From the NCBI GenBank assembly GCA_019454125.1, contig CP075365.1, forward strand, positions 1,048,218 to 1,112,217: a stretch of 64,000 nt of DNA, given 5' to 3'. The notes under the pieces were generated by a model. It saw only the letters and a list, made by a program, of their open reading frames with translations, was not told the origin of the DNA and ran no database searches. The DNA is from Fimbriimonadaceae bacterium (GTDB lineage Bacteria > Armatimonadota > Fimbriimonadia > Fimbriimonadales > Fimbriimonadaceae). Positions 8,341 to 9,385 of this stretch are shown here, piece by piece; position 1 is the stretch's first letter, and each line of letters begins with the position of its first letter. The position numbers and the translations under genes are program-made.

Positions 8341-8463
8341 CGGCGCGTGGGCCGGCCGGAGCCGGGCTCCTGGGCCCCCGGGCCCAGTACGCTGAACATC
8401 GGCACGAAAGTTGCCGTTCTAATGGGGACGTCGCAGGATTTTCGACCATTTTTCCCAAGGTTG

Positions 8464-8492
8464 TTGACATGGGAAATGCGGGTCGGTATCAT
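8464..8492 (+). promoter_or_regulatory. Strong sigma-70-type promoter for speD
   Basis: TTGACA (8464-8469) is a perfect -35 box, followed after exactly 17 bases by TATCAT (8487-8492), a 5/6 match to the -10 box. This is the best consensus promoter in the window. Transcription would begin near 8499, giving an untranslated leader of about 227 bases before the speD start. Confidence 0.8.
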
Positions 8493-8498
8493 GCGGCA

Positions 8499-8725
8499 CT
8501 GCGCCCAAGCCATCGGTTTTCCCGGTAGCCGGCGCCAAGAGCGGAACGCCTCCTTCCTGGTTTACCGGAGGAGGGGCAGGTTGAGTGGACTGGTGCGTGA
8601 CGTACGGCGGTTCCTCAGCATGGCGGGTTACACGAACGGCCCGCAGGCTATCCGTCTCGCTGTTCGGTACCGCCGTGAAGGGGCTCGTGTTCTTCCGGCA
8701 TGACGGAAAAACGAGGAAAACTTGA
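8499..8725 (+). promoter_or_regulatory. Structured leader of speD, possible regulatory RNA
   Basis: The long leader between the promoter and speD contains several strong pairings. CCTCC-T-TCC (from 8549) pairs with GGAGGAGG (8567-8574) around TGGTTTACC. ACGGCGGT (8602-8609) pairs with ACCGCCGT (8669-8676), enclosing an inner stem GCGGG/CCCGC. The first hairpin would hide a strong Shine-Dalgarno sequence. I recognise no known riboswitch class. Its position suggests control of AdoMet decarboxylase by polyamine, AdoMet or translation of a leader peptide; this is inference. Confidence 0.45.
8581..8703 (+). CDS. Candidate 40-residue leader peptide upstream of speD
   Basis: A TTG start at 8581 follows GGAGGAGGGG (8567-8576), one of the strongest ribosome-binding sequences in the window, and reads 40 codons to TGA at 8701-8703, 22 bases before the speD start. 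The peptide is Arg-rich (RDVRRFL, RYRREGARVLPA) and matches nothing I know. It lies wholly inside the transcribed leader. It could be a regulatory upstream reading frame, functionally similar to those before eukaryotic AdoMet decarboxylase, or chance within a structured RNA. Confidence 0.35.
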   Translation: MSGLVRDVRRFLSMAGYTNGPQAIRLAVRYRREGARVLPA

Positions 8726-9331
8726 TTGGCTACCACTCTTATCATCCTGGGTAGCGCGTGCCTGATGGCCGCGCTCGCACCGCTTTCGGCCCGGCCCCTT
8801 TCGTGGCTGGACCGATTCGCCCGCCGCTTTAACCGCCGCGATATCGTCGCCGAGCCGCCGCGCATCAAGAACGACGCCGGCTGGCACTTGATCCACAGCG
8901 AGAACGAGGAGGACTTCCGAGGATGGCTCGGCAAGGACAGCGAAGGGCTGCCCTTCGAGCCCGGCGAAATGCCGTCGCTCGGGTCCCACCTTTTGGTCGA
9001 ATTGTTCGGCTGCGACCCCGAGACGCTCAAGACCGAGTCCGTCGTCGGCGAGGCGATGCGCTCCGCCGCCGTCGAAAGCAAGGCCACCGTCGTCGAGCAG
9101 TCATTCCACGAGTTCAAGCCTTGGGGCGTGAGCGGCGCCGTGATCATCCAGGAGTCGCACTACACGATCCACACCTGGCCGGAGCACGGCTACGCCGCCG
9201 TCGACCTCTTCTATTGCGGGGGCACCGTCCACGTCGATCAGGCGGTCGAAGTGCTCCGCAAGCGCTTCCAACCGAAGCGCATCAAATTCTTGGTCGTCCG
9301 ACGTGGCGTCCAGAGCGAAGTCGAGGCCTGA
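8726..9331 (+). CDS. speD: S-adenosylmethionine decarboxylase proenzyme with N-terminal membrane anchor
   Basis: Makes decarboxylated AdoMet, the aminopropyl donor for polyamines. The proenzyme cleaves itself at E143-S144 within QESHYTIHTWPEHGYAAVDLFYCGG; the Ser becomes the pyruvoyl cofactor, and H149 and C163 match the conserved processing/catalytic residues. The enzyme domain (about residue 85 onward) has the normal bacterial length of ~120 residues. The protein carries ~80 extra N-terminal residues starting with a hydrophobic stretch (TTLIILGSACLMAALAPL) and a basic segment (RFARRFNRR). This extension is read from a TTG start with GAGGAA upstream; a shorter start at M82 (8969) has no good ribosome site. 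The aminopropyltransferase gene is 2.2 kb downstream. The leader before it is structured. Confidence 0.93.
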   Translation: MATTLIILGSACLMAALAPLSARPLSWLDRFARRFNRRDIVAEPPRIKNDAGWHLIHSENEEDFRGWLGKDSEGLPFEPGEMPSLGSHLLVELFGCDPETLKTESVVGEAMRSAAVESKATVVEQSFHEFKPWGVSGAVIIQESHYTIHTWPEHGYAAVDLFYCGGTVHVDQAVEVLRKRFQPKRIKFLVVRRGVQSEVEA

Positions 9332-9348: not shown

Positions 9349-9385
9349 CATACTCCCCGCGCGGCACGGCCACGCGGGGAGTATG
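9349..9385. terminator. Bidirectional terminator hairpin between speD and the TolB-like gene
   Basis: CATACTCCCCGCG (9349-9361) and CGCGGGGAGTATG (9373-9385) form a perfect 13-bp stem with an 11-base loop between two convergent genes. No long T tract follows. Confidence 0.75.

Follow-up and report, generated by a model that had tools for sequence, protein, structure and literature searches.

The question raised by this locus is what lies between the promoter of speD and its coding sequence: an upstream peptide that controls the gene, as first proposed from the sequence, or a riboswitch for S-adenosylmethionine (AdoMet) or a polyamine, which had been offered as the alternative. The window, that is, the whole stretch of 64,000 nucleotides that was analysed, is carried by a single-contig genome of 2.65 Mb from the family Fimbriimonadaceae (Armatimonadota). 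Comparison with relatives indicates that the leader is deeply conserved and very probably regulatory, and that it is most likely a new riboswitch candidate.

The speD gene and its promoter

speD occupies positions 8726-9331 of the forward strand and encodes an S-adenosylmethionine decarboxylase (Pfam AdoMet_dc, PF02675, E 4.4e-39, residues 88-194 of 201), as the original prediction had correctly called it. The gene starts with TTG, which is the start codon in 70 of 71 leaders of the family, the remaining one using GTG. It is preceded by the Shine-Dalgarno sequence GAGG (8713-8716, +), conserved in relatives, and a TGA in the speD frame (8723-8725, +) stands directly 5' of the start codon in the window and in 59 of the 71 leaders overall. 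These leaders derive from the 96 genomes, out of 113 in the order, that gave a SpeD match: 81 leaders were fetched, with 13 of a third family and two fragmented genomes left out. Of these, five from a second family were excluded, as was one with a wrong start; the remaining 75 were aligned, and the removal of four without a clearly placed -10 element (L047, L055, L059 and L076) gave the final 71. Among these 71, 22 belong to the window's type and others to a sister type, with the rest outside both. The sister-type RNA begins UGCGUCACGG, and this type counts 30 leaders, or 33 when a related subgroup is added and a few divergent ones are dropped.

A consensus scan located a sigma-70-type promoter at 8464-8492 (+), with TTGACA at 8464-8469 and TATCAT at 8487-8492 separated by 17 bases. 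This promoter matches the consensus at 11 of 12 positions, and shuffled sequences yield 0.1 sites per region. A -10 element with at least four of six matches is present in 66 of the 71 leaders and a -35 element in 52, of which 48 have a 17-base spacer. The near-perfect promoter that had been proposed is thus borne out, at the same place in most of the leaders. Transcription would start near 8499, about 6 bases past the -10 element, which delimits, at the 5' end of the speD mRNA, a structured leader of about 227 bases (8499-8725, +). Since relatives have this promoter at the matching position, the 227 transcribed bases proposed ahead of speD are credible, with the start taken from the promoter; the promoter-to-gene distance ranges from 196 to 302 bases across the 71 leaders. 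Between 8300 and 9500, no terminator-like site was found on the forward strand, and the sole one on the reverse strand lies inside speD, which fits translational rather than transcriptional control.

A covarying RNA fold ahead of speD

The 22 window-type leaders were aligned (alignment A1), and 46 base pairs in eight helices, one of them a pseudoknot, were scored. Pairing was found in 85.9% of 1006 cells, compared with 71.7% in shuffles; 30 of the 46 pairs carry changes on both sides, compared with 19.3, and 156 double-changed cells were observed, compared with 47.4. None of 500 shuffles reached the observed value on any of these pairing and covariation measures, and when the partners were slid by 1-3 columns, only 37-49% of cells were paired. 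Folding of the window's leader as a single sequence was mildly unusual (z -1.64; 9 of 200 shuffles equally good). Because such folding is weak evidence, the hairpins in the window are judged real from the comparison with relatives. The several strong hairpins announced for the leader are present by this measure, and the covariation that the original prediction proposed to look for among speD leaders of relatives has been found in these 22 sequences.

In the fold shown by this comparison, the window-type leader is predicted to form a multibranch domain, in which one helix closes three hairpins, with a pseudoknot to a strand just downstream. The closing helix P2 (8541-8550 with 8646-8655, +) encloses P3, P4 and P5; eight of its nine pairs are changed on both sides and 91.4% of its cells are paired. 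Hairpin P3 (8552-8558 with 8569-8575, +) has six of seven pairs changed on both sides, and most of the covariation resides in P2 and P3. Hairpin P4 (8579-8620, +) consists of three helices (8579-8582 with 8617-8620, 8586-8590 with 8610-8614 and 8593-8597 with 8601-8605), with both sides changed in 12 of 14 pairs. The weakest helix is that of hairpin P5 (8622-8627 with 8640-8645, +; 71.2% paired), the CGAAC loop of which (8633-8637) forms the pseudoknot with 8662-8666 (+); this is 90.9% paired and mostly invariant, with one pair changed on both sides. A further hairpin, P1a (8513-8517 with 8521-8525, +), is paired in 83.5% of cells in the 22 sequences.

The 5' domain of the sister type has covarying hairpins of its own (43 double-changed cells vs. 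16.1). The 3' part is common to the sister type and most other leaders, and its hairpin P6 covaries across 43 leaders (56 double-changed cells vs. 19.4). Two further alignments were made, A2 from 43 of the 54 motif-bearing leaders after removal of near-duplicates and mis-hits, and A3 from 29 of 33 leaders after removal of near-duplicates; in one scan, the motif was detected in 58 of the 71 leaders. Covariance model R1 was built from the 22 window-type leaders and model R2 from the shared 3' part. The R1 search did not find the sister-type leaders, so that position and the shared 3' part are the grounds for deriving the two 5' domains from a common ancestor. The R2 search did not find the window's own 3' part, which is taken to have diverged too far for this model.

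In the window's own genome, R1 has one copy, at speD (E 3.4e-37; next match 0.47). In the 113 genomes of the order, all 23 R1 matches at E ≤ 8.7e-6 are speD leaders, 22 being the model's own sequences and one independent (G058, E 8.7e-6); at E up to 0.05, the 28 matching genomes comprise the 22 model genomes, G058 and five with weak matches only (0.008-0.03). R2 gave 61 matches in 60 of the 113 genomes, 60 of them at speD and one weak match elsewhere (E 0.045). When 291 genomes of the phylum were scanned at E up to 0.001, R2 matched 55 genomes, all Fimbriimonadaceae, and R1 matched 25, namely 23 Fimbriimonadaceae together with G164 and G187. The matches outside the family (G187, E 2.0e-5 and 9.1e-5; G164, E 1.0e-4) were taken as chance, a verdict based on inspection of the G187 match at 2.0e-5 and the G164 match; one of these places lies inside a homoserine-dehydrogenase-like gene, named by reading its sequence, and the other in a long coding frame. 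A search of 84,980 species genomes with a pattern of the sister-type 3' part returned nine records, five from Fimbriimonadaceae or Fimbriimonas, two from Armatimonadetes, one from a 'bacterium' and one labelled Methanoregulaceae. From these searches, the structured RNA appears to occur only ahead of speD and in the one family, Fimbriimonadaceae.

Contig JADZEW010000016.1, labelled as a Methanoregulaceae archaeon, carries a sister-type leader, and its label is probably wrong. In the second family, a different conserved stretch, GGGTTGGGTCGGCGCGTGGGCGCC, is common to the leaders just upstream of speD (L077, L079 and L080, with variants in L078 and L081). This stretch is unlike the window's leader, and its loci in L079 and L080 gave no Rfam match.

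A scan of the window against Rfam at the gathering threshold returned two tRNAs only, and cmscan of 8400-9000 against Rfam 15 gave no match at E up to 5. Twenty relatives produced three Rfam matches at E 0.23-0.65, all far below gathering; at E up to 1, none belonged to a SAM family. In the open-licence literature, as judged from its listings, the speD leader of Fimbriimonas or Armatimonadetes was not found to be the subject of any paper. A large pseudoknotted leader that precedes speD only, in 26 genera of one family, and has no Rfam match makes a ready riboswitch candidate with a short list of possible ligands.

Predicted control at the speD ribosome site

Our preferred reading, to which we give a probability of roughly 0.62, is that the leader is a cis-acting structured RNA controlling speD translation, most likely by sensing an AdoMet/polyamine-pathway metabolite in the manner of a riboswitch. 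In the proposed mechanism, segment X (8665-8681, +), just past the pseudoknot strand, would form a duplex with the ribosome site of speD and the region around its start (about 8720-8735), predicted at -11.9 kcal/mol in the window; most leaders have the complementarity for such a duplex. In the sister type, an upstream strand E would pair with X instead, whereby the ribosome site would be freed, as is usual in translational switches. Binding of a ligand to the 5' domain would select which pairing forms, and the product of the pathway would repress speD.

In permutation tests of pairing, which do not remove the relatedness among the leaders, X and the start region of the 22 leaders paired better with their own partners than with permuted ones (2 of 5000), but not in 11 divergent leaders including the window (1328 of 5000). 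In a control, codons deeper in speD were nearly as good a partner for X (-13.5 vs. -14.7 kcal/mol). In the 33 sister-type leaders, the E-X duplex ranges from -7.5 to -16.2 kcal/mol, with permuted partners as good in 25 of 5000 cases under the same kind of test; the corresponding figure is 225 of 5000 for X with the Shine-Dalgarno sequence and 4991 of 5000 for the control, E with the Shine-Dalgarno sequence. The helix between the Shine-Dalgarno sequence and X is without double changes because both of its sides are near-invariant. Since the 3' part can hide the speD ribosome site, for which a third strand may compete in sister-type leaders, the leader is best read as a translational riboswitch-like element. 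As would be looked for in a riboswitch, a covarying conserved structure was found upstream of a metabolically coherent gene. A structured leader may also be a protein-binding site or an attenuator.

The presence of speD downstream points to AdoMet or polyamines as the candidate ligand. According to PMC11107197, a thermospermine synthase has been shown for Fimbriimonas ginsengisoli, which places thermospermine on the list of candidate ligands. The riboswitch-like RNA first raised as the alternative to a peptide is supported by the long conserved structured leader, with AdoMet and polyamines both as candidate ligands.

Among known systems, preQ1-II and SAM-II are translational riboswitches that hide the ribosome site. 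The speD leader resembles them in its pseudoknotted domain, directly upstream of a putatively sequestered Shine-Dalgarno sequence, but differs in size, junction layout and sequence and has no Rfam match. It also departs from the general layout of SAM-I, as its pseudoknot partner lies outside the closing helix. PMC10853860 (late 2023) describes a spermidine riboswitch, a SAM-I variant that acts by transcription termination before polyamine genes including speD; according to its authors, many earlier attempts, most of them unpublished, had preceded this first definitive class. The leader analysed here is likewise a structured bacterial RNA ahead of speD that would be expected to lower the expression of its own pathway; in contrast, it has no match to the SAM-I aptamer (E up to 5) and no terminator-like site on the forward strand.

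Reading frames in the leader and at the speD start

The original prediction had drawn attention to a very strong ribosome site, GGAGGAGG (8567-8574), and a 40-codon frame running from TTG at 8581 to a stop at 8701-8703, 22 bases before speD. Both exist as described, but GGAGGAGG is the 3' strand of the covarying hairpin P3 and is present in the window alone among the 22 window-type leaders. The codon at the place of TTG 8581 is ATG, GTG or TTG in only 6 of the 22, the window included, and the frames in window-type leaders do not exceed those of shuffles in length (median fraction 0.54). On these grounds, the upstream peptide from TTG 8581 is rejected. The combination of a conserved start codon and a conserved peptide upstream, as in uORFs of the AdoMetDC type, was not found in the leaders. 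A frame in phase with speD (frame 0), from GTG at 8585 or 8597 to the TGA at 8723-8725, is open for 46 codons in the window; it was discarded as inconsistent in relatives.

Translation may nevertheless take part in another way, which we consider unlikely as the main control: ribosomes initiated in the leader would end at or just past the speD start, on long frames in the sister types and on a 10-codon NUG-AUU-...-UAG frame in most leaders, and coupling or competition would set SpeD output. In the window, this 10-codon frame (TTG ATT GGC ... GGG TAG, 8722-8754, +) lies in the -1 frame relative to speD. It starts 4 bases before the speD start and 5 bases past GAGG, the speD TTG being 9 bases past it. 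The tetranucleotide NTGA precedes the speD start in 59 of the 71 leaders, as TTGA in 33 and as GTGA in 26, which creates a TTG or GTG start at -4. A stop in the -1 frame between +14 and +32 is kept in 51 of the 71 leaders (observed positions +20 to +29), whereas 1000 draws in which the same SpeD residues were encoded by synonymous codons from the later part of speD gave a mean of 4.3 and a maximum of 11. Counted with one leader per genus, the stop is kept in 19.9 of 26 compared with 1.55 expected; it is present in 21 of the 26 genera and absent in five. Start and stop go together, as the stop is kept in 50 of the 59 leaders with a -4 start and in 1 of the 12 without. The transcripts of 15 leaders offer no start in this frame other than the -4 codon, and the stop is retained in 10 of these, including the window. 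The stop is always TAG, followed by C in 48 leaders and T in 3; TAG would be the only stop compatible with the hydrophobic stretch of SpeD, with the shifted codon reading AGC or AGT (serine). From these counts, we conclude that the overlapping start/stop signal is real, with a decoy start or coupling as candidate roles. Such a conserved overlap is unusual in itself and could show how start-codon choice serves to tune an enzyme in bacteria.

Several observations argue against this control by leader translation. By eye, that of the 10-codon frame shows no conservation beyond what the speD overlap forces, and the window-type frames have the shuffle-like lengths given above. The long ATG frames of the sister types do exceed most shuffles (median fraction 0.18 and 0.15), with 2 of 30 and 2 of 19 leaders passing 0.05, but their frame relative to speD varies, and the overlapping stop is missing from the five genera. 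In one genus (L020, L029 and L032-L034), which has lost the -4 start and the TGA, a long leader ATG frame runs 10 bases into speD before it stops, and the stop codon differs between leaders. A programmed +1 frameshift at the UAG was rejected by eye, as the preceding codon varies and the speD start stays a start codon. Complementarity between the UAG and the P6 loop was seen by eye in some sister-type leaders and not in others.

In eukaryotes, AdoMet decarboxylase has a uORF near or overlapping the gene start. The speD frame is similar in being short and near or overlapping the start of the gene for the same enzyme, but it overlaps from 4 bases upstream, its peptide is unconserved and RNA structure is dominant; the relation is one of analogy only. 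A speculative and rather improbable extension would have two competing speD starts, 4 bases apart and in different frames (NUG-A-UUG), between which a folded leader sensing a metabolite or polyamine picks, with the decoy ending after 10 codons at the UAG inside the sequence for the N-terminal hydrophobic segment of SpeD. Bacteria would then have evolved, independently, an equivalent of the eukaryotic uORF that works through start choice and is joined to a new riboswitch class.

It also seems doubtful that what the leader binds is a protein regulator instead of a small molecule; SpeD itself and ribosomal proteins would be conceivable partners. Large conserved leaders hiding a ribosome site also serve autogenous proteins, and one relative (L050) has a sub-threshold match to L20_leader (25.7 bits, gathering 58.7, E 0.65); this match is at chance level and no protein candidate emerged, and about 170 conserved positions, arranged around a multibranch junction plus a pseudoknot, would exceed the usual protein site. 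That the leader is an RNA with its own job, either a small RNA or a stability element from whose promoter speD is read through, is very improbable despite its own strong promoter and compact fold, as it occurs only directly ahead of speD and its 3' part reaches into both the ribosome site and the start codon of speD.

Apart from these readings, several features of the gene and its product were observed. The SpeD protein carries an N-terminal extension of about 87 residues (8726-8986) ahead of the Pfam domain, with a hydrophobic stretch first and basic residues after it, which looks like a membrane anchor. It is found throughout Fimbriimonadaceae and also in the order's second family; neither 'transmembrane' nor 'N-terminal extension' appears in the text of PMC10407285. 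speD and the gene after it converge, and the space separating them holds a near-perfect hairpin of 12 base pairs (9350-9384), judged by eye to lack a T run, which is possibly a terminator shared by both genes. One relative encodes a second, distant SpeD homologue with 38% identity (G041:C5:214104-214442), which may be a decarboxylase acting on another substrate.
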